Source: Pelosinus propionicus DSM 13327 (GTDB lineage: Bacteria > Bacillota > Negativicutes > DSM-13327). From it: a stretch of 64,000 nucleotides of DNA. Numbering within the stretch: the stretch's first letter is position 1; each line of letters opens with the position of its first letter. A program made the position numbers and the translations under genes. Location of the stretch: positions 1 through 64,000 of the forward strand of contig NZ_FOTS01000022.1 in NCBI RefSeq assembly GCF_900114615.1, given 5' to 3'. The notes beneath the pieces are model-generated. The model worked only from the letters and a program-made list of their open reading frames with translations, was not told the origin of the DNA and did not search any database. Positions 10,303-64,000 of the stretch are shown piece by piece.

Positions 10303-10307
10303 ACATA

Positions 10308-11446: not shown

Positions 11447-11472
11447 GGGGAAAAGGTCTATTTCTTTTCCCC
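11447..11472. repeat. hairpin in the speE upstream gap
   Basis: GGGGAAAAG (11447-11455) and CTTTTCCCC (11464-11472) form a 9-bp stem. It may terminate the small membrane-protein gene whose stop lies 149 bases upstream on the minus strand. Apart from this hairpin I see nothing in the 334-base gap 11287-11620. Confidence 0.45.
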
Positions 11473-11620
11473 TCTTACTTATCACAGCGTTCACTCTACT
11501 CCAGTATACCGTATTGGCTTATTTTTATGAAAATTTAATTCCCATCAATTAGCATATATCCGATATGTCTTATATTCTACCTTCTTTTCAATGGAGCAAA
11601 CATTTTATTGATGATACGAT

Positions 11621-11896: not shown

Positions 11897-11984
11897 TTAT
11901 ATCTCCCCCTCCCAAAATAGAAGTACTTACTAAATAAATAGTCTTTTTATTATCCTATTCTGGGTAAGTAAAAGAGTTATACAC

Positions 11985-12031
11985 AACAAAAAAGCCCTCT
12001 CATTTCATCTCCAAGAGTAAAATGAAAGGGC
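11985..12031 (-). terminator. dcuC terminator
   Basis: GCCCTCTCATTT (11994-12005) pairs with AAATGAAAGGGC (12020-12031) with one non-Watson-Crick position. The minus-strand copy ends in TTTTTTG, 13 bases past the dcuC stop. Confidence 0.85.
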
Positions 12032-12043
12032 CCTTACATGCTA

Positions 12044-45519: not shown

Positions 45520-45521
45520 TA

Positions 45522-46352
45522 TTAGTTCCCCTTCCCATAGATATCATCTAATGCGATTTGCAGCTCTTTTTCATTGCAACTTTTGCCATGCCAGCCTGCA
45601 ACATTCTCCATGAAAGAGCAGCCTTTTCCTTTAACAGTAGTTGCAATGATCACGCTTGGTTTTCCTTTTGTTTGCTTTGCCTCTTCATAAGCAGCAAGAA
45701 CTTGTGAAAGATCATGTCCATCAATTTGGATGGTATGCCAATTGAAAGATTGCCATTTTTCTACTAAGGGAGCAACACCCATAACAGCTTCTACAGTACC
45801 ATCAATTTGTAAATTATTATAGTCAACTAGAGCACAAACTTGATCCAATTTATAGTGTGCGGCAGTCATTACAGCTTCCCATACCTGCCCCTCCTGCAAT
45901 TCTCCATCTCCTAAAAGACAATAAATCCGAAAGCCCTTTTTATTTAATCTAGCCGATAGGGCTAAGCCATTGGCAATCGATAACCCTTGCCCTAAAGAAC
46001 CACTGGAAACTTCTACTCCTGGAAGCAATTTGCTGCTAGGATGTCCTTGCAATTTCGAACCCAATGTACGTAAAGTCAGTAATTCCTCAACAGAAAAGTA
46101 ACCGCTTCTGGCCATCACAGAATAAAGTACTGGACAAACATGACCTTTCGACAAGATAAAACGATCCCGCTCAGGCCATGCTACTTCTTGTGGCCTATGA
46201 TTCATTACGTTAAAATATAAAGCTGTCATTAACTCCACAGCAGAAAGGCTGCCTCCCGGATGACCGGATCCAGCAGCAGCAGTCATTCTTACAATATCTC
46301 CCCGAACATCTTTACAGCTTTTCTTGAGTTCTTCCAAACTTTGTGTATACAA
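45522..46352 (-). CDS. transketolase, N-terminal (thiamine diphosphate-binding) subunit
   Basis: The product is 276 residues. ThDP contacts include SGHPGGSLSAVELMTALYF (about 30-48), the SKGHV segment, and the metal-binding GDGELQEGQVWEAVMTAAHY followed by NNLQIDG. The start is a TTG at 46352 behind GAGAGGGG. It is the first gene of a unit with the C-terminal subunit and dehydrogenase copy 2. A GGT-N6-ACC element 165 bp upstream matches one before the neighbouring GntR gene. Confidence 0.92.
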   Translation of the reverse strand: MYTQSLEELKKSCKDVRGDIVRMTAAAGSGHPGGSLSAVELMTALYFNVMNHRPQEVAWPERDRFILSKGHVCPVLYSVMARSGYFSVEELLTLRTLGSKLQGHPSSKLLPGVEVSSGSLGQGLSIANGLALSARLNKKGFRIYCLLGDGELQEGQVWEAVMTAAHYKLDQVCALVDYNNLQIDGTVEAVMGVAPLVEKWQSFNWHTIQIDGHDLSQVLAAYEEAKQTKGKPSVIIATTVKGKGCSFMENVAGWHGKSCNEKELQIALDDIYGKGN

Positions 46353-48948: not shown

Positions 48949-49865
48949 TTATTTGCTAATCGCTTGTCTCAGGGCAATAATTGAAGTTTTTACTCCTTCT
49001 AGTGGAGTCATGGTCATATCTTCCATTTCTAGAGACACATAATCCTCATATCCTACCATCCGGCAAACAGAAAAAAACTCTTTCCACCACAGCAAATCAT
49101 GTCCATATCCTATAGCGACATAATTCCATGAACGCTCCCCAAAACGGTCAATTGTTTTAGTATCTAGCACCCCATTCGCACCTACCATTCTGCGTTCCAA
49201 TCTGGAATCTTTCCCATGAATATGATAAAGTGCCTTATCTAATAAACGTACAGCCTCAATGGGATCTCCTCCCATCCAAAACATATGCCCCGGATCCAAG
49301 TTCATGCCAACCATGTCGCCAACTTCACCCCTAAGTCTAAGAAGGGTTTCGGGATTATATACCAACTGATAGCCATGGTTTTCCAAGGCTATGCATTCTA
49401 TACCACAATTTTCTGCATCCTTTACTAACTTGTGCCATGCAGGAATCGCTACATCTTCCCACTGATAGTCAAGCACATCTTTTGTTTCGGGCGGCCAGCT
49501 TGTTGTCACCCATACAGGCGTGCTATCGCCCTTGCACCCCACTGGCAGGCCGCTCATCATAATAATCTTTTTAATCCCTAACATTTGGGCAAGCTGAAAT
49601 GTCTTTAGGGTTACAGCTAGGTCTTTTTCATATGCCAGAGGATTGCCTGAACAGTTCAGCGCTATTAATTCAATATCTCGCTTTTTTAAGGCATCCATAT
49701 ATTTATCTCTGGCAATTTTACTGTTAACAAGCTCATCAAGATTTAGATGTGCTGCCTTTGACCAGTTGGAATTTCTAATGCCTGAACGCCAAGACTCTGA
49801 ACCATGTCTAACATTTCCTCAAAGTACATATATCCTAGTGAATCAGGTATATAAGATAGCTTCAT
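48949..49865 (-). pseudogene. TIM-barrel sugar isomerase/epimerase, frameshifted near its 5' end
   Basis: An ATG at 49865 behind AAGGAG opens MKLSYIPDSLGYMYFEEM and runs to ALEIPTG, then stops at 49743. A second frame carries NWSKAAHLNLDELV and continues through MDALKKRDIELIALN to a normal end at 48949. Joined, they give a complete xylose-isomerase-like barrel, with GIECIALENHG, GMNLDPGHMFWMGG, YHIHGKDSR and YVSLEMEDMTM as metal strands. The junction near 49760 lacks one base, or seven if a TGN-W motif was lost. The longest intact frame starts at 49698 and lacks the first beta strand. Confidence 0.75.
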
Positions 49866-49879
49866 CGGCAGCTTCTCCT

Positions 49880-50887
49880 TTATCTACCATAAAATGCAGA
49901 ACATTGAGGCATTGTAATGGGAACAATCGTCCCTTTCTCTCTAGCTTCAGTACAAGCATCTGCTGTAATGCATGCAGCATATCCATCCCATGCAGTTGGT
50001 CCTGCTACAACACCTAGCTTTACTCCATCTACCCACTGTTGAAACTCAATATTATATGCTTCAACAAATCGATCTGACCAGTCTGAAAAAATTTCATAGG
50101 ATAATTTTCCATGGGAACGCATCACAACAGCAGCCGGATCCGGAAGACGAATGGTACCAGTTTCACCTACAACTTCACACTGAACATCATATCCATACTG
50201 ACAGCTCACAAAGGACTCTATATCAATTCTGACTCCACTTTGGGTTTCCAATAGCACGATCTGTGGATCACGCAGACCATTTTCTGCAAGACTGGAACTT
50301 TTCGGCAGCAAGACCTGAGCAGTTTTAAAGTCCTCCCCCAGTAACCAGCGCAATACATCAATCTCATGAATAACAGAATTCTTGATACTCATTTCAGTCG
50401 TATGCTTAGGTCCTGGAGTGGGGTTTCGATGTACACAATGAAGCATCAACGGATTGCCGATTTCTCCACTTTCAATGCAAGCTTTAAGTTGTCTGTAACC
50501 GCTATCAAAACGTCTCATAAAGCCAACCTGTACCAGCTGCTTTCCTCCTGCTAATTCAGCTTCTACAATTCTTTTACAATCCTCTTTTGAGGTAGCCAAA
50601 GGCTTTTCGCATAGGACAAATTTTCCTGCTTTAATCGAAGCAGCAACATACTGTGCATGGGTTGGATCCCAGGATGCAATAACAACCGCATCGACCTCTG
50701 CGGCCTCAATGACTTCTTCACCTGTTACATAAAATTTGACGTCATACTTCTTAGCAAGGTTTTTTGCCCGATTCACATTTAGATCAGATAATGCTACAAC
50801 CCTAGCACCTGTAATAACATTAGTGATTCTGCGAATATGATCTTCGCCAATTGCTCCGGTTCCAATCACGCCAATACGCAAATTCAT
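49880..50887 (-). CDS. Gfo/Idh/MocA-family oxidoreductase
   Basis: The protein is 335 residues. The Rossmann loop IGVIGTGAIGEDHIRRI (about 4-20) binds NAD(P). Catalytic Lys is in LCEKPLATSKED (about 94-105) and the active-site His/Asp in IKNSVIHEIDVLRWL (about 170-184). It probably oxidises a cyclitol or sugar at a ring carbon, as inositol 2-dehydrogenases do. It is clearly different from the IolG-like protein at 55634. GGAGG precedes the ATG, and the frameshifted TIM-barrel gene starts 15 bases downstream. Confidence 0.9.
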   Translation of the reverse strand: MNLRIGVIGTGAIGEDHIRRITNVITGARVVALSDLNVNRAKNLAKKYDVKFYVTGEEVIEAAEVDAVVIASWDPTHAQYVAASIKAGKFVLCEKPLATSKEDCKRIVEAELAGGKQLVQVGFMRRFDSGYRQLKACIESGEIGNPLMLHCVHRNPTPGPKHTTEMSIKNSVIHEIDVLRWLLGEDFKTAQVLLPKSSSLAENGLRDPQIVLLETQSGVRIDIESFVSCQYGYDVQCEVVGETGTIRLPDPAAVVMRSHGKLSYEIFSDWSDRFVEAYNIEFQQWVDGVKLGVVAGPTAWDGYAACITADACTEAREKGTIVPITMPQCSAFYGR

Positions 50888-50974
50888 AAAATGTACCTCC
50901 TAAGCTTGCATAAGTTATAGAGATCTTAATGTCTATCGCCCTCATGCAGTACCAATATATTACAACTACAAAGC

Positions 50975-51763
50975 CTATAGCTCTAATAAGTATCTGGCCA
51001 CATTCTTGGATTCTTTTGATGGAATAAGTTCAAAGCCTATCATTCCATCATAAGCAAGCCGCCGCAAGCACTCCATCACATTCTTATAATTTATTTCTCC
51101 AGTGCCAGGCTCATGTCTGCCTGGCACATCAGCTATATGTATATAACCAATTGATTTTATATATCGAGTTATGGAATCTATAATATTACCTTCATTGACT
51201 TGCATATGGTAAACATCATACAAAATCTTAACGTATTTTGAATTAACTATATCAATTAATGCCACAGCATCCTTAGTATAGGCTAAAAAGTTATTCAAAT
51301 GATCAACTTGTGTATTCAGCGCTTCTACGACTAGCGTAATCTCATATTTTTCTGCAATCGGCACTATTTTTTTTAATACATAAACCATATTAGCAAATTT
51401 TTTATCTGCATTTATTTCATCGAAAGCATTCACTACTCTTCCGCCCTCTCCCAAAGCGTTAGAATGCAGTACAAGGTACTTACAGTCAAGAAATATGGCA
51501 GTTTTTATTGATTCTATGACAAAAGCAATATAAGCATCATTCTCCTCTTGATAGATCATTGAAAAATCTTGATCCCCTGAGAAACTGGCAACGTTCAGCT
51601 TACAACTCTCACATAAGGATTTTATCTTTGTTATATCCTTATCTTTCCATGACCAAAATTCGATATGCTGAAATCCTGCTTCTTTTGCTAAAGTAAAACG
51701 TTCTTCAAAGGGAACTTCCGTAAACATCATTTCAATACATGCTGATTTTTTCATATTAGCCAC
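50975..51763 (-). CDS. hydroxypyruvate isomerase-like TIM-barrel protein
   Basis: The protein is 262 residues. The family segments are visible: FEERFTLAKEAGFQHIEFWSW (about 19-39), LVVEALNTQVDHLNNFLAYT, ILYDVYHMQVNEGN, and IHIADVPGRHEPGTGEINY (about 213-231), the last typical of Hyi. Glutamate and histidine metal ligands are kept. It interconverts hydroxypyruvate and tartronate semialdehyde in glyoxylate metabolism, though Hyi-like proteins also act on keto-inositols. The start is a GTG at 51763 or an ATG nine bases downstream. Confidence 0.82.
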   Translation of the reverse strand: MANMKKSACIEMMFTEVPFEERFTLAKEAGFQHIEFWSWKDKDITKIKSLCESCKLNVASFSGDQDFSMIYQEENDAYIAFVIESIKTAIFLDCKYLVLHSNALGEGGRVVNAFDEINADKKFANMVYVLKKIVPIAEKYEITLVVEALNTQVDHLNNFLAYTKDAVALIDIVNSKYVKILYDVYHMQVNEGNIIDSITRYIKSIGYIHIADVPGRHEPGTGEINYKNVMECLRRLAYDGMIGFELIPSKESKNVARYLLEL

Positions 51764-51946
51764 ATCCGATCCTATTTATCACAATCAAGTGCCACTTCTG
51801 TAAAGAACAACGGTATTACTGTTACAAAAATTTACTTTCTTCCTCTTTTAAGCGCACGCACTGAATTCGCAAAGTACCAGTAAAGAAAGTATAAATGATC
51901 CCATATATGCATGCGCTTGTAAAGATTATTAAATGATATTTGAAAC

Positions 51947-52912
51947 CTATTTACCTAAGATCTTTTTTAAATCATCACTTTTTTGTTTCACATTTTCAGC
52001 ATTAACAATTTCCGTACCAGTATCTATACGATTTTCAATCGCTTCACCCTTAGCAATTTTGACAGCAGCTTCTACACTTTTAAATCCTATATTATAGGGG
52101 CTTTGCGCTACAGATGCATCCAGTTTTCCAGCACTAATAGAAGCCAATGCATCAGGAGAACCATCAAAACCAACAACAATCATTTTCTTGCCAGCATCTT
52201 CTAAGGCTTTGGCTGCTCCTAGCGCCATCTCATCATTCGTGGCAAACACTGCTGCAAATTCTTGTTTACTTTGCAGAATATTTTCGATTACAGTTACAGC
52301 CATGGAACGTTCGCTATTGGCAGGCTGGGTTACAGCCACTTCCAAGCCAGCAGCTTTTAATCCTTCAATACAACCGTTAGCTCGTTCATCATGAGTAGGA
52401 TCGCCTAATGCACCACGTAAAATAACAATTTTCGAACCCTTAGGAAGTTTTTTCCCAAAGTATTCTCCTGCCAGTTTACCACCGTTAAAATTTCCAGTAC
52501 CGACAAAGGAAGCCTTCCCATCCCATGCGGCGTCCGTATCAGCAAGAATTACAGGAATTTTAGCTTCTTTAGCGCGATTAAAAACAGGGATTGCACTCGC
52601 AGCTTGTGAAGGGGCTACAACTAATGCATTTACTTTTCTTGTAACTTGATCTTCAATTAAAGAAATCTGCCCCGTCACATCGGTCTCCGTATTAGGGCCA
52701 AGAACTTTTACTTCAACACCATATTTTTCGCCTGCTGCTTTCGCTCCAGATTCTACGATCTTCCAATAATCACTATTTAATGCTTTTACTACTACCCCAA
52801 CTTTCATTTTTTCGGATGCTTTTTGCGTTTGAGTCTGGGTACTACCACAACCAGCAACTATGAGAGTGACCATCAAAAACAATGCAGCCAACAGAGACAT
52901 GTTTTTTTTCAT
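51947..52912 (-). CDS. sugar/cyclitol ABC transporter substrate-binding lipoprotein (RbsB type)
   Basis: The product is about 321 residues. The signal peptide ends in lipobox LIVAGC, then a Thr/Gln-rich linker and a Peripla_BP_4 fold: VGVVVKALNSDYWKIVESGAKAAGE, IPVILADTDAAW, FATNDEMALGAAKALEDAG, VVGFDGSPDAL and an ending VAQSPYNIGFKSVEAAVKIAKG. AGAGGA selects the ATG at 52912. The matching permease and ATPase genes come just upstream in the operon. IolG-like enzymes beside it make myo-inositol a likely ligand, and ribose-type sugars are possible. Confidence 0.9.
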   Translation of the reverse strand: MKKNMSLLAALFLMVTLIVAGCGSTQTQTQKASEKMKVGVVVKALNSDYWKIVESGAKAAGEKYGVEVKVLGPNTETDVTGQISLIEDQVTRKVNALVVAPSQAASAIPVFNRAKEAKIPVILADTDAAWDGKASFVGTGNFNGGKLAGEYFGKKLPKGSKIVILRGALGDPTHDERANGCIEGLKAAGLEVAVTQPANSERSMAVTVIENILQSKQEFAAVFATNDEMALGAAKALEDAGKKMIVVGFDGSPDALASISAGKLDASVAQSPYNIGFKSVEAAVKIAKGEAIENRIDTGTEIVNAENVKQKSDDLKKILGK

Positions 52913-53021
52913 TCTAATTCCTCTTTTCTCATTTTTTAGTCCCAGAATGTTAGTAATCAGTACCTTTTTCCCCTTACACCTCCTCACATAATATCTTGGA
53001 ACTTAGTCATATACCTTATTT

Positions 53022-54023
53022 TCAAGTTTTCACCCTTGCAGCCGCCTTATGCCGCAAAACATCTATATATACTGCAAGAATAATAACAATTCCAATGGCT
53101 ACGGTTTGCATCTCGGCAGAAACACTTAAAAGATTTAATCCGTTTCGTAAAACTGCCATGATCATAGAACCAATCAACGTTCCCCAAACTGTGCCTTCCC
53201 CTCCCATAAAACTGGCACCGCCAATAATGCAGGCTGCAATCGCATCAAATTCATACCCTAATCCCGCTAAAGGATAAGCCGAATTGACTCGTCCTACAAG
53301 AACCAGTCCACCTAGAGCTGCCATGAGGCCACTAATGGTATATACAATGATTAATACTTTATCAATATTGATCCCTGACAAACGTGTTGCTTCTGGATTG
53401 CCCCCTACAGCATAAATATAACGTCCAACAGTCGTATAATTGAGGAAAACATGAAATACAGCATACACAACTAATACCAAGATAAAGCTAACAGGAATTG
53501 GACCGATAAAAGCCGCTCCTAAAAACTGTATTGATGCAGGAAAGTTGGAAATAGGCGAAGCTGCTGTTACAATCAAAGCTAATCCTCTAGCGACATTCAT
53601 CGTACCTAATGTAGAAATAAAAGGATGAGGCAGCGACATTTTAGTTAGCATCATTCCATTCAGCCATCCAAGAAGTATACCAATCCCTAGACATACCAGC
53701 ACGCCTACGACAGGAGACATTCCCATCTTTACTACAACAATCCCCATCATAACAGTACTCAATGCTAGAATCGAACCAACAGATAAATCAATTCCAGCTG
53801 TTAAAATCGCTAGTAACATTCCAATGGCAATAAGACTGTTTATAGCGGATTGCCTGGCAACATTCATAATGTTGTCAATTGTTAAAAAGTATGGAGAAGC
53901 AAACGTCAATACCAGGGATAAACCGATTAATCCAATGAGTGACCCCATTTTTTTTATCATCTGACGAAGTTGTGTTTTTTGTGTACCCCCATGACTTTGA
54001 ACTTCAGGCGTGCTTGCATTCAT
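53022..54023 (-). CDS. ABC sugar permease (RbsC type)
   Basis: The product is 333 residues with about 8-10 helices of the BPD_transp_2 family. AGIDLSVGSILALSTVMMGI (about 103-122) and GRYIYAVGGNPEATRLSGI (about 205-223), which holds the ATPase-contacting EAA-like loop, are typical of RbsC. The GIGILLGWLNG stretch is also standard. The start overlaps the ATPase gene by 20 bases, so translation is coupled. Confidence 0.93.
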   Translation of the reverse strand: MNASTPEVQSHGGTQKTQLRQMIKKMGSLIGLIGLSLVLTFASPYFLTIDNIMNVARQSAINSLIAIGMLLAILTAGIDLSVGSILALSTVMMGIVVVKMGMSPVVGVLVCLGIGILLGWLNGMMLTKMSLPHPFISTLGTMNVARGLALIVTAASPISNFPASIQFLGAAFIGPIPVSFILVLVVYAVFHVFLNYTTVGRYIYAVGGNPEATRLSGINIDKVLIIVYTISGLMAALGGLVLVGRVNSAYPLAGLGYEFDAIAACIIGGASFMGGEGTVWGTLIGSMIMAVLRNGLNLLSVSAEMQTVAIGIVIILAVYIDVLRHKAAARVKT

Positions 54024-55521
54024 GACTAATACCTCCTGTAGCAGCTTTTAAAATTTCCTCTGGTGTAACTTCCAAACAAGAAAATTCACCTGTTATCTTC
54101 CCACTGTTCATCACTAGAATGCGATCGCTAATTCCCATAACCTCGGGTAATTCAGAAGAAATGACAATCACTGCCGCTCCTTCGTTAACCAGACGATTGA
54201 TGAGATTATAAACTTCGACTTTGGCACCCACATCAATACCACGGGTGGGTTCATCAAAAATAAATATTTTTGCCTTTGAGCACAACCATTTAGCAATGAC
54301 TACTTTCTGCTGATTACCACCCGATAACAAGCGAGTCGTCATCTTTGGGATAGCAGGGTGAATTTGCAGCTCACGCATCATCTCATCAACTTCAGCAACT
54401 ACCATTTTTTGATCGATAAAGTATCCAAACTTGCAAAATTTCTTTAGTCCCGTCAACGTGGAATTAACGATAATATCATGCATAAGAATCAGCCCTTGCC
54501 CCTTACGGTCTTCTGTAAGAAAAGCCATACCATGGTGAATGGCATCCTTTGGGCTATTAATTTTAACCACTTTTCCAAATATTTCGATTATTCCTCCGTC
54601 AATCTTGTCTGCACCAAAAATAGCTCTCGCCAATTCAGTACGTCCTGCGCCAACCAATCCCGCAAAGCCAATCACTTCTCCTTTATGCAAGTCAAAGGAA
54701 ATGTCTTTCAGTCTGCCTCTTTGATTTAGATTTCTAACTCTTAAAGCAATCTCTCCTTTTTGGGTTTGGTGCCTAGGGAATTTTTCCTCCAAAGTGCGTC
54801 CTACCATTAATCGAATAATTTTTTCTTCATCCGCTTCACTTCTTTCCATCGTTCCAATTTTACAGCCATCCCGGATCACTGTAATACGATCAGCTATGGC
54901 CAGTACTTCTTCTAATCGATGGGAAATATAAATAACTGCAATGCCCTTTTCTTTTAGCATATGTATATTTTTCAACAAAACATCCACTTCACGACCAGAC
55001 AGGCTGGATGTTGGTTCATCCATAATAATAAGCTTCACATTGGCAATTAACGCACGAGCAATTTCAATCATCTGTTGATATCCCATTGTATATTCACTAG
55101 CTGTCTTAGTCACATCAATGTCAATTCCCAGCTCCAGTAAAGCCGTCTTTGCTAACTGATTCATTCTACGGTAATCCAATAGCCCAAACCCTGGAATACG
55201 TAATTCTCTACCTAGAAAAATGTTTTCTGTAACTGTCAGGTTGGGCAATATGCTTAATTCCTGATAAATTGCTGTAATCCCTAAAGAAAATGACTCTTTC
55301 GTATTGTTAAATCGAACTACCTTGCCCTCACAAAGCATCTCACCATCATTGCTTTGATACACACCTGTTAGTATTTTAATAAACGTGGATTTTCCTGCCC
55401 CGTTTTCACCGCAAAGAGCATGAATTTCACCATTTTTAACATCCAAACTGACATCTGTTAAGGCATTTACACCAGGAAATCTTTTACATATCCCTTTGAG
55501 ACTTAAAAGGTATTCACACAT
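54004..55521 (-). CDS. sugar ABC transporter ATPase (RbsA type, two ABC domains)
   Basis: The protein is about 505 residues with two ABC modules. The first has Walker A GENGAGKSTF (about 36), signature YTMGYQQMIEIARAL and Walker B LIIMDEPTSSL. The second has the degenerate Walker A GLVGAGRTEL usual in RbsA/MglA proteins, signature LSGGNQQKVVIAKWL, and Walker B IFIFDEPTRGIDVGAK. It drives import through RbsC. GGGAGG selects ATG 55521. It follows the iolG-like gene by 113 bases. Confidence 0.95.
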   Translation of the reverse strand: MCEYLLSLKGICKRFPGVNALTDVSLDVKNGEIHALCGENGAGKSTFIKILTGVYQSNDGEMLCEGKVVRFNNTKESFSLGITAIYQELSILPNLTVTENIFLGRELRIPGFGLLDYRRMNQLAKTALLELGIDIDVTKTASEYTMGYQQMIEIARALIANVKLIIMDEPTSSLSGREVDVLLKNIHMLKEKGIAVIYISHRLEEVLAIADRITVIRDGCKIGTMERSEADEEKIIRLMVGRTLEEKFPRHQTQKGEIALRVRNLNQRGRLKDISFDLHKGEVIGFAGLVGAGRTELARAIFGADKIDGGIIEIFGKVVKINSPKDAIHHGMAFLTEDRKGQGLILMHDIIVNSTLTGLKKFCKFGYFIDQKMVVAEVDEMMRELQIHPAIPKMTTRLLSGGNQQKVVIAKWLCSKAKIFIFDEPTRGIDVGAKVEVYNLINRLVNEGAAVIVISSELPEVMGISDRILVMNSGKITGEFSCLEVTPEEILKAATGGISHECKHA

Positions 55522-55633
55522 ACATAAACCTCCCGATACATCGAATGCTTTATAGCAGTAAAAAATCAACTATGTTATTCCATATTAGCCGTTCCTGTAG
55601 ATGCTTCATTCTTTAACTAACGAGATACGATTT

Positions 55634-56659
55634 TTATAAACCAAAGGTATTTTTGATTTCTGCTGTTGTAACAGGCCGATTTTCATCCAAAGATTTTTTA
55701 GCAGCCAGACCAATAATGACAGGTTCTAAGCCATCTGTAATATTTACTGGAACATCGGTATTATTTACGATTGCAGCAACAAATTCCTGAATTTCAGCAG
55801 TATATGCCTGCATATATCTTTCCAGGAAAAAATATAACGGTTTTTCAGATATAACACCTTTTTTTGTACTAAGAACCGCTGTAGAGGATTTGTCATTACC
55901 AACTGCAACAGCACCTTCGGAGCCAAATACTTCAGCACGTTGATCATAGCCATAAACCGCACGCCTTGAGTTATCAATAACCGCCATTGCACCATTATTA
56001 AGTTTCATGGTGATGATGGCTGTGTCAATATCACCTGCCACACCAATCCCGGGGTCTACTAAAGCTCCCCCCATTGCATACACTTCTACTACTTCGCTGC
56101 CGGAAAGATATCTGACCATATCAAAATCATGGATTGTCATATCCAAAAACATGCCGCCTGAGATTTTAACATAGCTAATAGGTGGTTCCTCTGGATCTCT
56201 TGAAGTAATTTTAATGATATGCTGCACGCCAATTTTCCCCGCATCGACTGCCTCTTTGACTGCTTTAAAATTATGATCAAATCGTCGGTTAAAGCCAACT
56301 TGATATTTAATACCAGCGTTTTTCACTGCCTTAAGTACTTCTTTAATTTTGTCTACATCATGATCAACAGGTTTTTCACAGAATACATGCTTACCAGCCT
56401 TAATCGCTTCTAAAGAAATTTGTGAATGGGTATCCGTTGATGAACAAATCAACACAGCATCAATTTCTGAGTTTGCCAAAATATCATGATAGTCTTTACT
56501 CGTATACTGAATCCCTAATGATGTGGACCATTGTTTTGCAGCCTCATCCAAAAATGGATCAGCAATGAATGTTACTTCTGCTCCTTTAACATATTTAGTA
56601 ATACTTTCTGTATGTACCTTGCCAATTCTGCCTGCTCCAATGATACCGATTTTTAACAT
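55634..56659 (-). CDS. iolG: myo-inositol 2-dehydrogenase (IolG-like)
   Basis: The protein is 341 residues of the Gfo/Idh/MocA family. NAD loop GIIGAGRIGKVHTESI (about 4-19), CEKPVDHDVDKI (catalytic Lys about 96), VGFNRRFDHNFKAVKEAVDAG (about 120-140) and MFLDMTIHDFDMVRYLSG (about 168-185, catalytic Asp and His) match bacterial IolG closely, so NAD-dependent oxidation of myo-inositol to scyllo-inosose is likely. Related sugars cannot be excluded. It heads the operon and is divergent from a DeoR gene. The promoter overlaps a palindrome at 56862. Confidence 0.85.
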   Translation of the reverse strand: MLKIGIIGAGRIGKVHTESITKYVKGAEVTFIADPFLDEAAKQWSTSLGIQYTSKDYHDILANSEIDAVLICSSTDTHSQISLEAIKAGKHVFCEKPVDHDVDKIKEVLKAVKNAGIKYQVGFNRRFDHNFKAVKEAVDAGKIGVQHIIKITSRDPEEPPISYVKISGGMFLDMTIHDFDMVRYLSGSEVVEVYAMGGALVDPGIGVAGDIDTAIITMKLNNGAMAVIDNSRRAVYGYDQRAEVFGSEGAVAVGNDKSSTAVLSTKKGVISEKPLYFFLERYMQAYTAEIQEFVAAIVNNTDVPVNITDGLEPVIIGLAAKKSLDENRPVTTAEIKNTFGL

Positions 56660-56773
56660 AATAATGCCACCTTTCCTTATGATTCATTTACATTCCAACC
56701 TCAACAGCCAAAAGTTTATACTTTTTATGGCTAGAGAATATGAATCTAGCACTTCCTAACACATCACAAATTT

Positions 56774-56801
56774 TGATCATTTAATTGCAATAAAATGATC
56801 A
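56774..56801. repeat. 9-bp inverted repeat in the iolG-deoR gap
   Basis: TGATCATTT (56774-56782) and AAATGATCA (56793-56801) have a 10-base spacer, 115 bp before iolG. It could be a second regulator site or mRNA leader structure. Confidence 0.4.
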
Positions 56802-56843
56802 CATTTGCCTATGTCATTATTATAACTTGATTACTTATTGATA

Positions 56844-56876
56844 AATTTACTATTATTTCCAATTATTGTCAATAAT
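56844..56876 (-). promoter_or_regulatory. candidate iolG promoter with DeoR operator
   Basis: On the minus strand TTGACA (56867-56872) and TAAATT (56844-56849) are 17 bases apart. The -35 is the middle of ATTATTG-A-CAATAAT, a 7-bp-arm palindrome (56862-56876). A repressor there would compete with polymerase. The -10 match is only moderate. Confidence 0.5.
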
Positions 56877-57079
56877 AATTTTTAAAGATTATAAATATTC
56901 TTTTATCTGATGATAGTAAGCAATATTCTGTATGTTATTACGCTTGATAAATGCATTTAAGAATATTTTACTAATTTTAAATCTCCGATTTATTTTACAA
57001 TTAAGGAATAATCTCCTAATAAGGTACCTTTTCAGAATAAAATATTATCAAAACCTACTCATCCATTTAACAAAAAAAC

Positions 57080-57108
57080 TTGTATAATGAATTGTAATTG
57101 CATATAAT
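57080..57108 (+). promoter_or_regulatory. deoR promoter
   Basis: TTGTAT (57080-57085), a 17-base spacer and TATAAT (57103-57108), 33 bases upstream of the TTG start. The rest of the 481-base gap 56660-57140 is very AT-rich with only the elements listed here. Confidence 0.65.
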
Positions 57109-57140
57109 ATTAACCAAATACGGTAATGTGAGGTATTAAA

Positions 57141-57905
57141 TTGAAAATCAATCGAATTAGTGAAATTGAAAAGTATACACGTCAATTGGAGCATGTTTCA
57201 TTAGATCGGCTGTGTGATGTCTTTAAAGTCTCAAAAAATACAATTCGAAGAGACATTAGCGAGTTGGCGAAAAGGGGAGCGATAAAAAAAGTATATGGAG
57301 GTATTACAATCAACCAGAAAAATGGTGTTGAATCCCGCGAACCATTCGAATCACGCGAGATAAAATATCAAGTTGAAAAAAGCCAGATTGCAAAGCTCGC
57401 AAGTGATCTAGTAGATGACGATGACGTTATTTTTATTGATTCTGGAACCACAACGATACACATGATTCCTTTTCTGGCTAATAAACAAAATATAACGATT
57501 GTTACCACCAATTTACATGCTATTACTGCTTCTATTCCATATCCAAACTTAAATGTAATTTCTACTGGCGGCGTACTTTATCGGGGAACCAATTCCCTTA
57601 CAGGTACAGGAGTGACAGCCTCTCTTAGAAACTACAATATAAAAAAAGCATTTTTAGCATCAACAGGTGTTTCACTGACAAAGGGTGTAACAAATATATC
57701 TCCTCTTGAAACTGAAATAAAACGCTATTTAATCGAAAATAGCACACAGACTGCTCTATTAGTCGATCATACCAAAATAAACATTGCATCTTTAATGACC
57801 TATGGAAATCTCGAAGATTTTAATTATTTTATCACCAATACACTTCCTCCAGCTGAATTTGTAGATTTTTTTGCGGCAAATAATATAGCTCTTTTAACCC
57901 CCTGA
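57141..57905 (+). CDS. DeoR-family transcriptional regulator
   Basis: The product is 254 residues. The HTH domain (about 5-58) reads VSLDRLCDVFKVSKNTIRRDI and ends in KKVYGGI, as in DeoR/GlpR. The DeoRC sensor (about 75-235) has VIFIDSGTTTIHMIPFL and VISTGGVLYRGTNSLTG, the sugar-phosphate-binding fold related to ribose-5-phosphate isomerase. GAGG sits seven bases before a TTG start. It is the only plus-strand gene here and diverges from iolG, so control of the inositol/sugar operon by a phosphorylated intermediate is likely. Confidence 0.9.
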   Translation: MKINRISEIEKYTRQLEHVSLDRLCDVFKVSKNTIRRDISELAKRGAIKKVYGGITINQKNGVESREPFESREIKYQVEKSQIAKLASDLVDDDDVIFIDSGTTTIHMIPFLANKQNITIVTTNLHAITASIPYPNLNVISTGGVLYRGTNSLTGTGVTASLRNYNIKKAFLASTGVSLTKGVTNISPLETEIKRYLIENSTQTALLVDHTKINIASLMTYGNLEDFNYFITNTLPPAEFVDFFAANNIALLTP

Positions 57906-57912
57906 TTCTGAC

Positions 57913-57967
57913 AAAAGGTACCCTTTCTTGCTGACTTAATAACATTCAACAAGAAAGGGTACCTTTT
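57913..57967. terminator. strong bidirectional terminator
   Basis: A perfect 18-bp stem: AAAAGGTACCCTTTCTTG at 57913-57930 and CAAGAAAGGGTACCTTTT at 57950-57967, with a 19-base loop. It follows the DeoR gene by eight bases and faces the end of the converging chemoreceptor gene. Confidence 0.88.
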
Positions 57968-58036
57968 CTTTAGATCATAGCATTCATGATCTGCACATCG
58001 TAATTTTTAAATAATTCGAGCTGCCGTAACTATAAA

Positions 58037-60034
58037 TTATATTTTAAATTTATAAACCTGATCCTTTAGCTGCTTCGATAATTCAGCTAGCATTCCACAA
58101 GTTGAAGCAACTTCCTCCATTGCAGCTGTCTGCTCCTCTACTGCTGCCGAAACATTTTGTAATTCACCTGTGGCAGCTTCGTAAGTCTTTTCCGCCGCTT
58201 TCACAGACATCACAATTTGTTGACTACCTAAAGAGAGCTCCGCTAATGATCTAGAAATTTTTTTCACCTGATGATCTACACTTTTGACAAAATGTAAAAT
58301 CTGCTTAAATTCTTCTCCAGCAGAACTTACTACTGTAACCCCTTGGTCCACATTCGCAATAGCTGAATCAATTGACTCTACTACATTGTTTATATTTCGA
58401 TGATTTTTTTGAATTAATTCAGTAATTTGGCTTGCTGCTCTTTCAGATTGTTCTGCAAGTTTTCTTACTTCTTCGGCTACAACAGCAAAACCGCGCCCTT
58501 GTTCTCCTGCACGTGCCGCTTCTATTGCTGCATTTAAAGCTAGAAGATTTGTCTGTCCGGCAATAATAGAAATCAATCCTACGATTTCTCCAATTTGCTT
58601 AGAACCTGCTTCCAGTTCGCCAGACGTTTCTTTCGCCCTTTTAGCAGACTCGACCATGCTTTCCATTTGACTCATTGCTTTTTTAATGGCACATTCTCCG
58701 GCATCTGTAGCTAAGGTAGCTTTCTGAGCCACCCCAGTCATTCTATCTGCCGTTGCAGATACATCTTCAATGCTTGCTGACATACCGGTAACAACTTCAG
58801 ATACCTCTTTGAATATATTCACCTGATCTTCCGCTCCCTGAGTCACGTTAGCGATAGCAGAAGCAATTGAGCAAGATGCCTCTGCAGATTGCTGCGAACT
58901 TTCGCTAAATTGTTGAGCAGATTTAGCAACTTGACTAGACGACGAATAAACATGTGAAATTAATTCACGCAAATTTGCTGCCATCTTCGAAAAACCGTGT
59001 ATTAATTTGTCAATTTCGTCTCCTTTGCCTAACTCATGATTGGAGGTAATTGTCAGATTTCCATCTGCAATATTTTCTGCCATCTCTTTTAATTGCTGAA
59101 CCCGACTTACGATTTGCAGCGTAAATAGAATTATAATGATTCCTAATAAAAAAAGTGCAACTATACTGGATATAAACGAATGAATTCCTAATATATCCAC
59201 TTGCTCAAGCAACTCTGCCTTAGGCACAAAAACAGCAAATGTCCAACCTGTTTTTCCAATAGGAGAGGCAGCCATTAAAGTCTCAATACCATCAAGTTCA
59301 CCCGTTTGAACACTAGCTGTTCCGCTCATTAGCTGTTTACCATATTCGGCGAACTTCCCATTTTCACTCTTTAAGATATTATCTTTCAAACCAAACGTAG
59401 GATGATACACAAAATTTCCTCTGCCATCTAGTATAACTGCATATCCCGTTTTACCAATTTTAAAATCCTTCGCTAGTTTATGTATTGGGTCAATATCTAT
59501 GCCAATGCCAGTAACACCAATAACATTCCCATCACGTATTATGTTTTTAACTACTCCAACTGATAATTCATTAGCTGTTGACTCATATATTTCTGTATAA
59601 CCGATTCCTCCATTAGCTTGCAAAGCCACCTTATACCACTCCCGTGTCCGCGGGTCATATCCTTTCGGTTTCTTTTTTTCTGTGATGCCTTGAGAATCTG
59701 CACAAGTCATATTTTCATACCCTGTATAAGCGGATTGAACACCTGTTCCAGCAGCTTTGACTTGCTTTAAAAATTCAATTTCTTCGGCTTGCGGTAGTAC
59801 CTTCTCGCCTAATACCTGGGCAGTAACTGAAACTAATACCTCTTTTTCTTTTAGTGAAGAATATATATTATTGCTGCTGCTTTCTACCAAATAACTGGCT
59901 GTTTCCACTATTTGCCCATCAAGAATACGACGTGCTTCATAATAAGAATAGTAACTCATTATACTTAATACCAATAGCATTGGAACGATCAGTATGAACA
60001 GCATTTTAGTTCTTAACTTTAATGATTTCCACAT
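58037..60034 (-). CDS. methyl-accepting chemotaxis protein (dCache sensor)
   Basis: The protein is about 665 residues. Helix 1 is at about 10-30. The periplasmic dCache_1 domain (about 35-285) has [16 protein letters not shown] and [23 protein letters not shown], the ligand pocket type that binds amino acids or carboxylates. Helix 2, HAMP and the signalling domain ([22 protein letters not shown]) follow. GAGGAG selects ATG 60034. It lies between the inositol operon and the phytase operon, so taste for a related compound is conceivable, but no evidence ties it to one. Confidence 0.92.
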
Positions 60035-60131
60035 AAACTCCTCACCTTTCATAGTCATATTTGGCGTCAACTCTTAGTTGCTATCTACTGTAAATTTAAA
60101 GCGACACAGAAAAATGATATATTAGAATTTG

Positions 60132-60160
60132 TCCCTTGAAATTAAAATAACTTCAAGGGA
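60132..60160. terminator. hairpin after the beta-propeller phytase gene
   Basis: TCCCTTGAA (60132-60140) and TTCAAGGGA (60152-60160) form a 9-bp stem, 12 bases past the phytase stop. The T tract is weak. Confidence 0.6.
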
Positions 60161-60171
60161 GCTTGGTATAG

Positions 60172-61299
60172 TTATTGCTTTTTCAATTTACGCGGATTCA
60201 CTGTGTTATCCAGCTCTACACCAGAAACAGCTTGGACAATTTTTTCCCATCTTATTATTTTAAAGTTTTGGTTTAATTTCTCAGTACCATTCATATTTTC
60301 ACCATCCTGAGCAATCAATAGACCATTTGGAAATTCCTTACCCAGGTTAAAACTGATAACATCAATGCCGTCTGTATCATTGGTTCCATCAACTTTACCA
60401 TCATCAATGGAAAAACTGCCAATGTATGAATTCATTCCTCTTCGATCATAGATATTATAACTGTTATTTCCTTGACTAGAGGCTATTAAGTGCCCTTTTC
60501 CGTTACGCGCATAATAGATTGTTAAACCTTCAACATCTGCAATTAAATGACCAGCGCCGACAGAATCAACCTGAACACGCTTAGCTCCTGCATCAGGCTC
60601 AGCACCATATTTCCAGATTCCAACATTTTCTTCAGAAATATAGAAGCAACCATATTCATCATCAGCTACTAAACCTTCAGAAATACTGCCGATGTTTAAA
60701 GAACGAACAAGTTTAGCATCAATTTTTCCCTCTCCGTTATCAAAGAGCTCATATTGCTCAAATTCACCTTCATAGCCAGATATAAGCGCATAGTATTTAT
60801 CAGTTTTCAAACTATGATATAGAGAAAAACCATATACGACTTTCATTTTTGCAAATAGATTTCTTGCAGCAATATTCGTCAGTTCACCTGTTTCAGAATT
60901 AATCTTATAAATAATCAGTCCATTATTTTGAGCTCTATCAGTAGCAGCAGCAATATCAACTTTTTCCTTTCCAAGAGGAAAATTGTAGCGTACATCAACA
61001 TTATTCGGCTTTCCAGCTTTAACATTATATAATTCTTTACCTTTTAAATCATAAACAAGAAGCCCCCCCTGCTTATTGGTCGCAATAATAGTACTCTTAG
61101 AAGGGTTTTGGGGATGAACCCATATCGCAGGATCATCTGCCGCATCATGACCTGATACAACAGCATCCGTTTCATAGTCTGCCTGAACAGCAACATCGTG
61201 ATAATTTTTTGCTGCTTCTGAAATATTGCAACCTCCCCAGCCAAACCCTATAAAGGAAGCAGCCAATAAAGCTGCATATATCTTTCTACATGCTTTCAT
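60172..61299 (-). CDS. beta-propeller phytase (3-phytase, PhyC type)
   Basis: The product is about 375 residues, a secreted six-bladed propeller that hydrolyses Ca-phytate. DAADDPAIWVHPQNPSKSTI (about 52-71), NNVDVRYNFPLGKEKVDIAAATDR, VVYGFSLYHS, SGYEGEFEQYEL, VADDEYGCFYISEENVG, LIADVEGLTIYYA and DTDGIDVISF match Bacillus phytases along the full length, with the acidic Ca2+ ligands. The N-terminal signal (MKACRKIYAALLAASFIGFGWGGC) ends in Cys, but the lipobox is weak. GAGGTG favours ATG 61299. The gene follows the PTP-like phytase gene by about 80 bases. Confidence 0.95.
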   Translation of the reverse strand: MKACRKIYAALLAASFIGFGWGGCNISEAAKNYHDVAVQADYETDAVVSGHDAADDPAIWVHPQNPSKSTIIATNKQGGLLVYDLKGKELYNVKAGKPNNVDVRYNFPLGKEKVDIAAATDRAQNNGLIIYKINSETGELTNIAARNLFAKMKVVYGFSLYHSLKTDKYYALISGYEGEFEQYELFDNGEGKIDAKLVRSLNIGSISEGLVADDEYGCFYISEENVGIWKYGAEPDAGAKRVQVDSVGAGHLIADVEGLTIYYARNGKGHLIASSQGNNSYNIYDRRGMNSYIGSFSIDDGKVDGTNDTDGIDVISFNLGKEFPNGLLIAQDGENMNGTEKLNQNFKIIRWEKIVQAVSGVELDNTVNPRKLKKQ

Positions 61300-61376
61300 T
61301 ATAAATATCACCTCATTGTATTCTTTTATTTCAACCAGCATTTTTTTATCTACTGTGGAGTAAGGGGAGGCAGATG

Positions 61377-62345
61377 TTATTCTTGTATATGATTGTGTTC
61401 TTTAATCCATTTTGACCAGCTTATCGGCAAATCATCAGGGCTTGTTGTTACATATTCATAAAACATTTTTAAAAGTTTAACCTTTTCCTTATATAGCGGT
61501 ACCTTATAGGCATCTTTTTCATTAGATACAGTTATTTTTGTAGCATTATTTCCGCCAAGCAAATATTGACGATTTACAATGTCCTCGAAACTAACCTGCT
61601 TCCCGTTCCGAAGAATGTCATACATCACCATAATTTGGGTGGTACGTCCTTCACCAGCCATACAATGGAAATGCAGCCAAGCATTTTGAGGTAATTTCTT
61701 GTAAAACTTCACAAAATCATTTACTTGTTCATTTGTAAATGAAGAGTGGTCAGTGGCTTGAATTCTTAAGTAATTTTGCCCACGAGAAGTAACAAATTCC
61801 TTTTCGGTGAGTGCATTATCAACTGCTATTTTATAAGTTTCATAGGGTTTTTTATCATCATCTAATTCTGAGATTTCTATAGGAGACTTTAATGCAGATC
61901 TTAACCATGCTTTTTCATCTTTTTCAACTTGAGCCACTGATTTACCTACATTTACCCAATCACGGCTAATATATGCACTTACCCCAATACCATTTACAAA
62001 ACCATGAGATTCCTGACGTAAATCAACTATGTAAATCGGACCAGACGTTACTGACTTTATTTTTTCTAACATTTTGTCATAAGATGCATAGGAAAATTCA
62101 GAGCTCCCTGAAATATGCAGAGTATCCAAACCGATCCTTGATGGCAATTCCCCTTTTATTTTTTTATTTTAAAATGGATCATTTGCCATCCTAAAATTTT
62201 TTGGCATCGTGGAGATGTTTTTATTGTCAATTCGCCAGATGGGCTTTTCCTCCACAGTCTGCGTTGCTGGTTCAGCAGCAAATAGAATTGATTGACAAGC
62301 AAGTAACATGGTTAACATTAATACAAATGGTATAAATTTTTTCAA
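61377..62345 (-). pseudogene. PTP-like cysteine phytase with one in-frame stop (codon 59)
   Basis: A TTG at 62345 behind GGAGGAG opens a signal peptide (MKKFIPFVLMLTMLLACQS) and mature start IWRIDNKNISTMPKNFRMANDPF. Codon 59 is TAA (62169-62171). The same frame continues without a gap through LPSRIGLDTLHISGSSEFS to the end. General acid Asp is in YLRIQATDHSSF, and the P-loop is HCMAGEGRTT with catalytic Cys at codon 228, the PTP-like myo-inositol phosphatase signature known from Selenomonas. Without readthrough only a fragment starting at a TTG at 62147, lacking its signal peptide, could form. Confidence 0.8.
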
Positions 62346-62407
62346 AATAACTCCTCCTCTATAATGGCAATAGAATGAAAAATTTAAAAATCTTATCTGA
62401 TTATCAA

Positions 62408-63353
62408 TCAGAATTTAGTGCTCAGTTTGAGCGACGAGCAAATGAACGTTCCATGATCTGCAGCAGCCGTCTTCTCTCCCCACCATTTTTCAAATGTGAG
62501 GGTGCCTGCTTTAGATACTTTATAAGAAATTGCTGCGCCAACTCCTTTAAATCCATTCTCAGTATACTGGTCATCATAATCTGTATAATTGCCATCTCTA
62601 AAAATGCCTGCATCAGCATTCATGTAAGATAGAGTATACTTAAAATCGCCAACCTTTTTTGTACTGCCATTTTCTACTTCGACTACATAGGCTTTTGTCT
62701 TGCTGACTATTATTTATATATTCACTGCTTATTGTCGTTCGTGGAGAAAATTGATACTTGCCATGTACAGCTGCATAGTTATCCTTGTCTTGCTTTCCAA
62801 AATAAATACCTCCAACCCCCTTTTCAAAAGCATTGTCCCAAGCCAAGTATTGTATTTCACTAGTAAAGTTTATTTTAGTACGGCTCTTGGCATCATAGAC
62901 CGTATCTTCCTGCTGATCCCGGCCAGCAAATACTCTAATTGAGTTCGATTTATTAAGTTTCGCAGATAACATAGCACCCGTTACACCATTAGCAGACATC
63001 CATAAACCTTTACCTATTTCAATCGGTTGACTGCCAAGACGGAGTGCCATAGTATCCCTTAGCTTGCTTTCTACCCACACGTCATAAAGTGTAATGGAGT
63101 TTGACTCTGAGTTAGCTGTATTATTGTTCGAATTCTTGAATTTTAAATCAAGCCCTACCGTAGTTTTATCATCAAGCTCGCTAGTCATATATACCTTGAT
63201 TTCGCTCTTGGACTTATATTCATTGTCTTCAGTACGTTCATATCCGGTCTTGGTCGATCCTGTTATTTTAATAGGACCAGCACTAGCATACACCTGGACG
63301 GTTGACATCACAATCGCTGCCACTACAACAGCGGTGATCATCTTTCTATTCAC
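62408..63353 (-). pseudogene. outer-membrane porin-like protein, frameshifted
   Basis: GTG 63353 behind GGAGG opens a Sec signal (MNRKMITAVVVAAIVMSTVQVYASA) and beta-strand-rich sequence with many Asn and Ser (ITLYDVWVESKLRDTMALRLG). At 62693-62696 a run of four A (minus strand) shifts the frame and it stops at 62640. Removing one A gives KAYVVEVENGSTKKVGDFKYT, then MNADAGIFRDGNY and a C-terminal STKF with the terminal Phe of porins, total about 314 residues. It would admit solutes, perhaps phytate, through an outer membrane, and precedes the phytase genes. Confidence 0.75.
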
Positions 63354-63533
63354 GTATTCATTCCTCCACCTTTTTAAAAATAGTAATCATTCATTCTAAA
63401 GAACATGTAAACTATAAAAAATTCCGTCATGTTATTATGTTATCCTACTCAATAAACTCCTTGGTAAAATTAAAGTATGGCAGACAAAATCACCACTATA
63501 CTTAAAAATAACTTATACTTCTTTACTATCTTC

Positions 63534-63632
63534 TCAATAAATAGTATTATTATATTGGTTTCTATATGGATAAGGTCCTCGACTGGGATAGAGTTGCTGC
63601 TCTATGACTCCCAGTTCGAGGGCTTTTTCCAT
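63534..63632 (-). CDS. possible small open frame, Tyr-rich
   Basis: From ATG 63632 the frame reads MEKALELGVIEQQLYPSRG and ends at TGA 63534 (32 residues). The frame stays open further upstream to 63709, behind a perfect AAGGAGGTGA at 63712-63721, but only an ATA would lie at the right distance. No family recognised. It overlaps a hairpin, so it may be a leader peptide or chance. Confidence 0.25.
   Translation of the reverse strand: MEKALELGVIEQQLYPSRGPYPYRNQYNNTIY
63577..63628 (+). terminator. long GC-rich hairpin with T run
   Basis: CCTCGACTGGGATAGAG (63577-63593) folds back on CTCTA, TCCCAG and TCGAGG (63600-63621) with a four-base bulge, then GCTTTTTCC on the plus strand. No plus-strand gene ends here. 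The rest of the gap 63354-63760 holds only the small frame and the ribosome-site-like AAGGAGGTGA. Confidence 0.5.
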
Positions 63633-63760
63633 TACTTGATTCAAATCTAACAGTTTCTCAATAACAACTCCTTTTCTAGATTTTAATGCTTTGTATATAT
63701 TTTTTTGATCTCACCTCCTTAGCAGAATAACAATGTTTTATATTTTACCAGTTAAATTCT

Positions 63761-64000
63761 TCAATTGTATTTATGCTGCTTTGCCCATTCAGTCCAAGTC
63801 ATAGAATCATCAGGCCTTTGTACCACATAGTCATAAAAATGCTTCGTAAATACAGCACGCTCCGCATAACCTACTTTTTTTAGCGGATCTTTTGACGTTG
63901 ATTTCCGAATATCTTGGCCGCCAATCAACCATTGGCGGGACATAATATCGTCGTAGCTAACTTCTTTGGCATTATGGAGCATATCGACCATTGCCATAAA
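63761..64000 (-). CDS. PTP-like cysteine phytase, C-terminal part (runs off the window)
   Basis: The visible 79 codons are the end of a second PTP-like phytase. FMAMVDMLHNAKEVSYDDIMSR aligns with the helix after the P-loop of the copy at 61377 (IMVMYDILRNGKQVSFEDIV), then LIGGQDI and the tail RPDDSMTWTEWAKQH match again. The P-loop itself lies beyond base 64000. A paralogue in the same direction suggests a phytase array. The frame is open at the window edge, so the start, signal and domains before this cannot be judged. Confidence 0.85.
   Translation of the reverse strand, partial: FMAMVDMLHNAKEVSYDDIMSRQWLIGGQDIRKSTSKDPLKKVGYAERAVFTKHFYDYVVQRPDDSMTWTEWAKQHKYN

Follow-up and report, generated by a model that had tools for sequence, protein, structure and literature searches.

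A probable phytate-utilisation locus in Pelosinus propionicus, with a candidate transporter and phosphatase pair for inositol monophosphate

Plants store phosphorus mainly as phytate (InsP6), which also forms a large pool of organic phosphorus in soil and manure, and in the available parts of the literature examined here its complete anaerobic breakdown and the fate of the last phosphate, that of Ins(2)P, are not settled. The stretch of Pelosinus propionicus DSM 13327 analysed here (the window; bases 1–64000 of a 78,832-base contig, in a genome of 5.41 Mb and 134 contigs) carries phytase genes of two unrelated folds close to genes for inositol oxidation and sugar import. Negativicutes have an outer membrane. 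The locus raises the question of whether these genes make up one route from phytate to inositol and, if so, in what form the inositol ring crosses the inner membrane. From gene identities, linkage and recurrence in relatives we consider it probable that this is a phytate-utilisation locus of a Pelosinus species. We further propose, at chances that we put slightly short of even, that a GlpT-family antiporter (OPA-MFS) and a metallophosphoesterase with a LamG-like domain (MPE-LamG) form a widespread Negativicutes pair that would import inositol monophosphate, chiefly Ins(2)P, in exchange for phosphate and dephosphorylate it inside the cell.

The window ends within the locus, and reading the contig beyond base 64000 added nine more whole genes and the end of iolC. 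The preliminary description, made from the window only, had linked phytate to inositol use, and this link is strengthened as the contig runs on into iolD and iolE (both over their curated NCBIfam cut-offs), iolB and the iolC end. From the contig end into the window, the minus-strand genes follow one another as listed down to the chemoreceptor, after which come a convergent DeoR gene on the plus strand and then another iolG with the genes of the Rbs-type ABC importer, which return to the minus strand. JBW45 in this list is Pelosinus fermentans JBW45, of the same genus and the nearest named relative with the island.

78668–78832, minus strand: iolC, last 55 residues at the contig edge
77864–78652, minus strand: iolB, whole, 97% identity to JBW45
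76845–77741, minus strand: iolE, 432 bits against a curated cut-off of 290
74839–76776, minus strand: iolD, 982 bits against a curated cut-off of 715
73276–74304, minus strand: LacI-type regulator
71301–72326, minus strand: iolG outside the window, passing the cut-off of 355
69838–71220, minus strand: OPA-MFS, GlpT-family antiporter
69114–69821, minus strand: PHP protein
65926–68841, minus strand: MPE-LamG, metallophosphoesterase with a LamG-like domain
64764–65723, minus strand: PTP-A, PTP-like phytase (PF14566)
63761–64699, minus strand: PTP-B, PTP-like phytase (PF14566), of which the window holds only the 3′ end, 63761–64000
62408–63353, minus strand: putative outer-membrane porin, frameshifted near 62690
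61377–62345, minus strand: PTP-C, PTP-like phytase, interrupted by an in-frame TAA at 62171–62169; the frame with the PF14566 match is 61377–62147
60172–61341, minus strand: beta-propeller phytase (BPP; PF02333), start probably 61299 as in JBW45
58037–60070, minus strand: methyl-accepting chemoreceptor with a dCache sensor (PF02743, PF00015)
57913–57967, between the convergent DeoR and chemoreceptor genes: terminator-like hairpin, seen directly in the sequence
57141–57905, plus strand: DeoR-family regulator (PF00455, PF08220)
55634–56659, minus strand: iolG, inositol 2-dehydrogenase (TIGR04380, 481 bits against 355)
54004–55569, minus strand: Rbs-type ABC ATPase (PF00005; nearest to NCBIfam sugar ABC ATPases, below cut-off)
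53022–54023, minus strand: RbsC-like ABC permease (PF02653, 143 bits)
51947–52987, minus strand: Rbs-type substrate-binding protein (PF13407, 214 bits), N-terminus lipoprotein-like by eye

Both iolG copies (481 and 477 bits), iolD and iolE pass their cut-offs in this one cluster, with iolD and iolE 9–16 kb from the phytase genes. A different contig of the genome (C98) carries a further match to the iolC model, which is full-length and exceeds the cut-off. The iolG, Rbs-type (CUT2) importer, isomerases and DeoR regulator named from the window all matched the corresponding family models, iolG over its curated cut-off and the isomerases as AP_endonuc_2 proteins. Where a terminator had been placed between the two halves of the locus, a terminator-like hairpin is likewise present, with arms at 57913–57930 and 57950–57967. 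An automated terminator scan did not list it; its loop is longer than the scan allows.

A BPP and a PTP-like phytase on the minus strand, with a second PTP-like phytase beside them, had also been recognised from the window. The first two match PF02333 with 492 bits and PF14566 with 87 bits (PTP-C), and the second PTP-like gene, PTP-B, matches PF14566 as well, though it runs off the window and a third, PTP-A, lies beyond. The four genes span less than 6 kb and include every match to the two families in the genome (one PF02333 and three PF14566, E ≤ 0.001). In the BPP, residues 26–388 cover profile positions 8–374 of 375, which is the whole domain; the protein resembles the Bacillus BPP (PDB 1poo, 3amr) over nearly its whole length, with 1poo the best PDB match (E 3e-112), and is 90% identical to that of JBW45. 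PTP-A, PTP-B and PTP-C score 91, 82 and 87 bits against a cut-off of 27, and all three keep an HCxxGxGRT P-loop (HCFAGMGRT, HCEAGEGRT, HCMAGEGRT).

The PTP-like phytases appear to be of two types. PTP-A and PTP-B, both with signal-like N-termini by eye, aligned best to repeat 1 of the Mitsuokella multacida phytase PhyAmm (PDB 3f41), and PTP-C of JBW45 to its C-terminal repeat 2; in a tree PTP-A joined the first halves of tandem enzymes, whose second halves lie in the part of the tree that also contains PTP-C. The available portion of PMC3981807 places repeat 1 among broad-specificity, low-activity enzymes and describes repeat 2 and the Selenomonas ruminantium enzyme as highly active and specific. 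Since PTP-C is like the InsP6-specific type and PTP-A and PTP-B are like the broad type, a division of labour is likely, which suggests that PTP-C and the BPP would open InsP6 and PTP-A and PTP-B would act on lower esters. Unlike in the PhyAmm tandem, the two types are here separate genes beside a BPP; tandem PTP fusions of 621–640 amino acids were present in four related loci that we read (G143, G258, G291 and G036). A protein of 382–389 amino acids with a Tat-like N-terminus by eye lies beside PTP phytases in G005 (C2:515759–516928, locus L037) and G258 (C3:36123–37271, locus L054).

Lack of conserved proximity in relatives had been set beforehand as a finding that could refute the phytate-to-inositol link; the gene set recurs in JBW45 and in Anaerospora hongkongensis, which the genome classification used here places in a different family. 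The JBW45 island is largely collinear with ours, with a few extra genes between iolD and iolG, and continues through iolB, iolC (420 bits against a cut-off of 300), an iron alcohol dehydrogenase, an aldolase and iolA (over the cut-off of a methylmalonate-semialdehyde dehydrogenase model) to a divergent DeoR-type regulator. Anaerospora keeps most of the set in a changed order: porin, PTP-C and BPP lie on one strand, and the chemoreceptor, PTP-B, PTP-A, MPE, OPA-MFS, iolG, iolE, iolD, iolB, iolC, aldolase and alcohol dehydrogenase on the other, with a DeoR-type regulator at the island end. Its iolG, iolE, iolD and iolC pass their cut-offs, and iolB stays below its cut-off of 205 in both relatives (111 bits in JBW45, 102 in Anaerospora). 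No Rbs-type importer, PHP or island-type iolA matched in the 55 kb fetched from Anaerospora. A third island, in G005 (same genus as the window), holds iol genes, OPA-MFS, PHP, MPE, PTP-A, PTP-B, iolA and a chemoreceptor. This island lacks PTP-C, the porin and any close copy of the ABC genes, and a BPP is missing from the whole genome. The chemoreceptor is thus near the phytases in JBW45, Anaerospora and G005 as well as here.

Wider counts were made in 380 genomes of the class, the same number in each search. PTP phytase was found in 188 and iolD in 62 (E ≤ 1e-150; 61 over the cut-off), 48 of the latter also having a PTP match. The two genes lie on one contig within 20 kb of each other in at least 10 of the 34 of these 48 genomes for which both coordinates were available, many genomes being fragmented. 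MPE was found in 32 genomes (E ≤ 1e-80), of which 29 have iolD (Fisher p 6e-23, ignoring phylogeny; 17 of the 29 within 20 kb) and 29 have a PTP match (16 with a listed match within 20 kb). Altogether, an MPE gene has iolD or a PTP phytase at most 20 kb away in 26 of the 32; in the other six, contigs different from that of MPE carry the listed genes.

The OPA antiporter follows MPE closely. We searched for it in 48 genomes, the 32 with MPE and 16 controls with iolD and no MPE, and it was present in 30 of the former versus none of the latter (E ≤ 1e-120). The two genes share a contig within 4 kb in 29 of the 30 genomes and within 1 kb in 26, at a median gap of 172 bases, with the PHP gene between them in three islands of the Pelosinus genus. 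Taking R45, K80, H165 and R269 as the substrate site of GlpT, we found the lysine, the histidine and the second arginine (K87, H168 and R267 here) kept in all nine OPA copies. GlpT itself is the best PDB match of the OPA protein (1pw4, E 7e-52). For MPE, the metal-site motifs DSH, GD, GNHD, HH and GHLH are shared by JBW45 and Anaerospora, and the N-terminal part has a weak likeness to a purple acid phosphatase N-domain (24.8 bits, below the cut-off of 30). None of ten MPE N-termini from eight genomes showed a signal peptide by eye, and the enzyme is probably cytosolic. A phosphate-ester importer encoded beside a cytosolic phosphatase and the genes for inositol breakdown points to the uptake of inositol phosphates.

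The route that we infer, in its order of steps, in its locations (read by eye from N-termini) and in the substrates of the OPA, MPE, PHP and ABC proteins, would run as follows. Outside the inner membrane, exported phytases of two unrelated folds, one BPP and three PTP-like, would remove phosphates from InsP6. The OPA-MFS would take up lower inositol phosphates, probably Ins(2)P, in exchange for phosphate. Free inositol would have an entry of its own in genomes that provide one, through the Rbs-type ABC importer or, as in JBW45, through a sugar-porter MFS. Cytosolic MPE-LamG, joined in some genomes by the PHP protein, would remove the last phosphate, and IolG, IolE, IolD, IolB and IolC with their partners would then degrade inositol. 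The locus would thereby gather the whole route in one place, pair in nature two phytase chemistries that may complement each other, and name a transporter and a phosphatase that can be assayed directly. If the proposal is true, the OPA-MPE pair would be a missing last step of phytate degradation in Negativicutes, and genomes that lack PTP phytase (such as G146 and G345) could feed on Ins(2)P released by others. According to the available part of PMC7618129, both Ins(2)P and inositol build up when Mitsuokella jalaludinii degrades phytate; its authors ascribe their formation to a phytase in the periplasm, with uptake coming afterwards. Phytate is described there as supporting faster growth than inositol and as giving an eight-fold induction of an "inositol transporter" and of PstSCAB, a phosphate importer. 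Import through an OPA-MPE pair could explain the faster growth.

Shared regulation was sought in the intergenic stretches. The DeoR of the window is 53% identical to its counterpart in JBW45, a DeoR-type regulator encoded next to the iol operon. The sequence WRAYCAADARD, which we take to be the IolR consensus, gave five intergenic matches against a shuffled mean of 3.8, nothing above chance. A 15-base motif, ATAATATAACCAAAA, gave 17 matches with up to two mismatches in 440,689 bases from 13 stretches, compared with 3, 0 and 4 in first-order random sets. Ten of these matches fall between genes. The three that are exact separate a DeoR-type regulator from the iol genes in JBW45, G005 and Anaerospora. 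Noticed post hoc in the same sequences, the motif is a lead to a candidate iol operator and is not evidence for co-regulation of the phytases. The motif also occurs with two mismatches between the DeoR and ABC genes of JBW45 (1709309).

Several observations speak against the proposed route or parts of it. Before the phytase and porin genes, the iol-promoter motif has only partial matches of 10–11 bases. PTP-C and the putative porin are both interrupted in this assembly, by real lesions or by sequencing errors. In PTP-C the TAA follows 58 codons, between a signal-peptide-like start (62345) and the catalytic domain, and intact copies have 322 amino acids in JBW45 and 318 in Anaerospora; if the lesions are real, this strain may rely on the BPP, PTP-A and PTP-B. 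The BPP was found in only three of the 380 class genomes, where three PTP matches always lie no more than about 5 kb away and iol genes are nearby, so that the combination of two folds is rare and not a core feature. Its phosphate site also seems to depart from the usual one at one position. We take K76, R122, Y159 and K179 to form the phosphate site of the Bacillus enzyme. K90, R136 and Y170 of our protein match the first three, and the acidic metal-site columns that we inspected are kept, but position 190, presumably the column of the phosphate ligand Lys179, is Tyr here and in JBW45 and His in Anaerospora, versus Lys in 56 of 61 aligned BPPs. The replacement in the three Negativicutes proteins may lower or change activity, and the BPP may prefer another ester or be weak; listings of the open-access literature gave no paper confirming the role of the lysine.

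On the side of the transporter, the OPA protein is below every named NCBIfam cut-off, and its position 51, presumably equivalent to GlpT R45, is Arg in four and Lys in five of the nine copies. The co-occurrence counts ignore phylogeny, and the 16 controls were chosen by the author from 33 genomes. Three MPE genomes have no PTP match (G146, G345 and G346), and two of them have OPA, so that neither gene is strictly tied to the phytases; this fits import of inositol phosphates released by others or a different substrate. In JBW45 a sugar-porter MFS adjoins iolD, so that this strain may import the ring mainly as free inositol. Finally, the phytase gene of M. jalaludinii is described in the accessible part of PMC7618129 as constitutive and not induced.

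The preliminary description had freed cyclitol feeding into the adjacent Rbs-type importer. A rival explanation close to that model holds that dephosphorylation is completed outside the inner membrane, that free myo-inositol enters through the Rbs-type ABC importer or a sugar-porter MFS, and that OPA and MPE serve another organophosphate, e.g., glycerophosphate. The Rbs-type ABC genes adjoin iolG here, lie beside the JBW45 island (permease 96% identical) and are found inside the iol operon of another genome, G024, at 69–80% identity (80% for the permease), a position that favours inositol or a close cyclitol as ligand. The binding protein encoded at 51947 has RbsB as its closest named model, below the cut-off, and 4 of the 11 residues that we take to be ribose contacts in RbsB are changed in the alignment, making ribose an unlikely ligand. 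The MFS beside iolD in JBW45 and the free inositol formed from phytate by M. jalaludinii (PMC7618129, as available) also suit completion outside the inner membrane. However, the stretches fetched from Anaerospora and G005 contain OPA and MPE with no close ABC copy (the search covered these stretches and not the whole genomes; some 15 kb beyond the G005 island is a binding protein of 30% identity), and OPA is missing from all 16 iol-positive controls that lack MPE. The adjacent ABC importer did not hold up as the general entry point, as it varies between islands while the OPA antiporter accompanies the phytases in more lineages, and we hold complete external dephosphorylation to be unlikely.

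A second possibility is that this is a phosphate-scavenging locus, in which the phytases mainly free phosphate and use of the inositol carbon is incidental. PTP phytase does occur in 140 of the 318 class genomes with no iolD match, and PstSCAB, which imports phosphate, is reported to be induced on phytate in M. jalaludinii (PMC7618129, in the part available). On the other hand, the surrounding genes serve carbon catabolism or encode DeoR-type regulators, and no pho or pst genes were recognised by eye in four islands, no dedicated search having been made; phosphate scavenging as the main role seems to us very improbable. That separate inositol, phosphatase and sugar-import genes became neighbours by chance, as the rearrangements and the extra genes at 44.5–51.8 kb of a fluid region might allow, was rejected as scarcely credible, since the same gene set recurs in genera of different families with changed order and several families have genomes with the OPA-MPE pair.

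Several known systems come close to this locus. M. jalaludinii, also a negativicute, converts phytate to Ins(2)P and inositol with a phytase in its periplasm, after which a cluster of inositol genes comes into use; the available part of PMC7618129 describes one phytase and an inositol transporter and mentions no BPP and no clustered OPA antiporter and MPE. The IolCatGC cluster (PMC9430895, seen in part) shares iolG, iolD, iolE, iolB, iolC and a DeoR-type regulator, to which the present locus adds phytases, an OPA antiporter and MPE; the main text of that survey, as far as available, has no mention of Pelosinus or Negativicutes. A study of phytase neighbourhoods in pig-gut isolates (PMC12838507) also asked about conserved phytase neighbours and examined inositol clusters, and in its available part found no conserved neighbourhood across genera, whereas here one is conserved across two genera and parts of it in more. 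Phytase families, iol clusters and OPA antiporters are already known; for their combination and for the OPA-MPE pair we found no description. Neither is described in the accessible parts of PMC12838507, PMC7618129, PMC12482443, PMC9430895 and PMC3981807, and listings of the open-access literature gave nothing relevant on inositol phosphate antiport. The statement that no described system combines these genes therefore agrees with the open-access literature as judged from listings, which is not proof.

The BPP has a distribution of its own. The three Negativicutes proteins formed one clade with support of 100/100 in a tree built from 59 BPPs, making a single origin likely. A scan of named genomes with a BPP alignment, based on two peptide patterns and not exhaustive, gave 62 loci with flanks of up to 10 kb (some shorter), among them JBW45 and Anaerospora; the other 60 are from Paenibacillus, Cohnella, Bacillus, Brevibacillus and three Bacteroidales metagenome-assembled genomes. 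A PTP phytase lies in the flank at three of the 62 loci (JBW45, Anaerospora and Paenibacillus rigui) and at none of the other 59, and OPA-MFS, MPE and the chemoreceptor flank the BPP only in JBW45 and Anaerospora. We had considered the BPP-PTP pairing to be unique to Negativicutes, and this was rejected on the P. rigui locus (L062), where a PTP-like gene lies about 1.2 kb downstream of the BPP. No OPA, MPE or iol gene matched in the 21 kb of that locus. At 9686–13184 it has BPP, a LacI-type regulator and the PTP-like phytase in a row, the phytase with no evident signal peptide.

Of the porin that had been described ahead of the phytase genes, the position stands; the gene is frameshifted here and its identity as a porin is putative, with no family match. 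The frame shifts near 62690 and resumes to about 62408, and intact homologues of 315 and 347 amino acids are found in JBW45 and Anaerospora. The protein and these homologues stay below every Pfam cut-off, the two homologues also had no NCBIfam match, and structures predicted from two-row alignments were unusable (mean pLDDT 29.7 for the porin and 38.1 for MPE). Porin-like genes also occur near PTP phytases in three genomes of family f11, G036 (L045, 12688–13902), G258 (L054, 6374–7585) and G285 (L055, 2354–3649), with N-terminal stretches that have weak coiled-coil matches below cut-off. A conserved short frame (ELGVIEQQLYP..GPYPYRNQYNNTIY, translated by eye) lies between PTP-B and the porin, at about 63530–63650 on the minus strand of the window and at C1:1702782–1702991 in JBW45.

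To the left of the ABC genes lie three accessory genes:

50975–51763, minus strand: TIM-barrel isomerase (AP_endonuc_2), nearest to hydroxypyruvate isomerase, below cut-off
49880–50887, minus strand: IolG-like dehydrogenase, nearest to the inositol/D-chiro-inositol dehydrogenase model NF052679 (475 bits, below the cut-off of 540)
48949–49698, minus strand: AP_endonuc_2 TIM-barrel protein (Pfam, 91.7 bits)

The region 44.5–51.8 kb, which includes these three, is missing from the matching place in JBW45. Near-identical D-2-hydroxyacid dehydrogenase genes at 34213–35172 and 43516–44475 bracket about 9 kb of the window, and in JBW45 the gene occurs once, immediately following that of the ABC binding protein, so that the region up to 51.8 kb looks inserted or duplicated. 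Split transketolase genes at 44572–46352 lie beside the TIM-barrel and dehydrogenase genes, possibly as part of another sugar pathway that adjoins the island.

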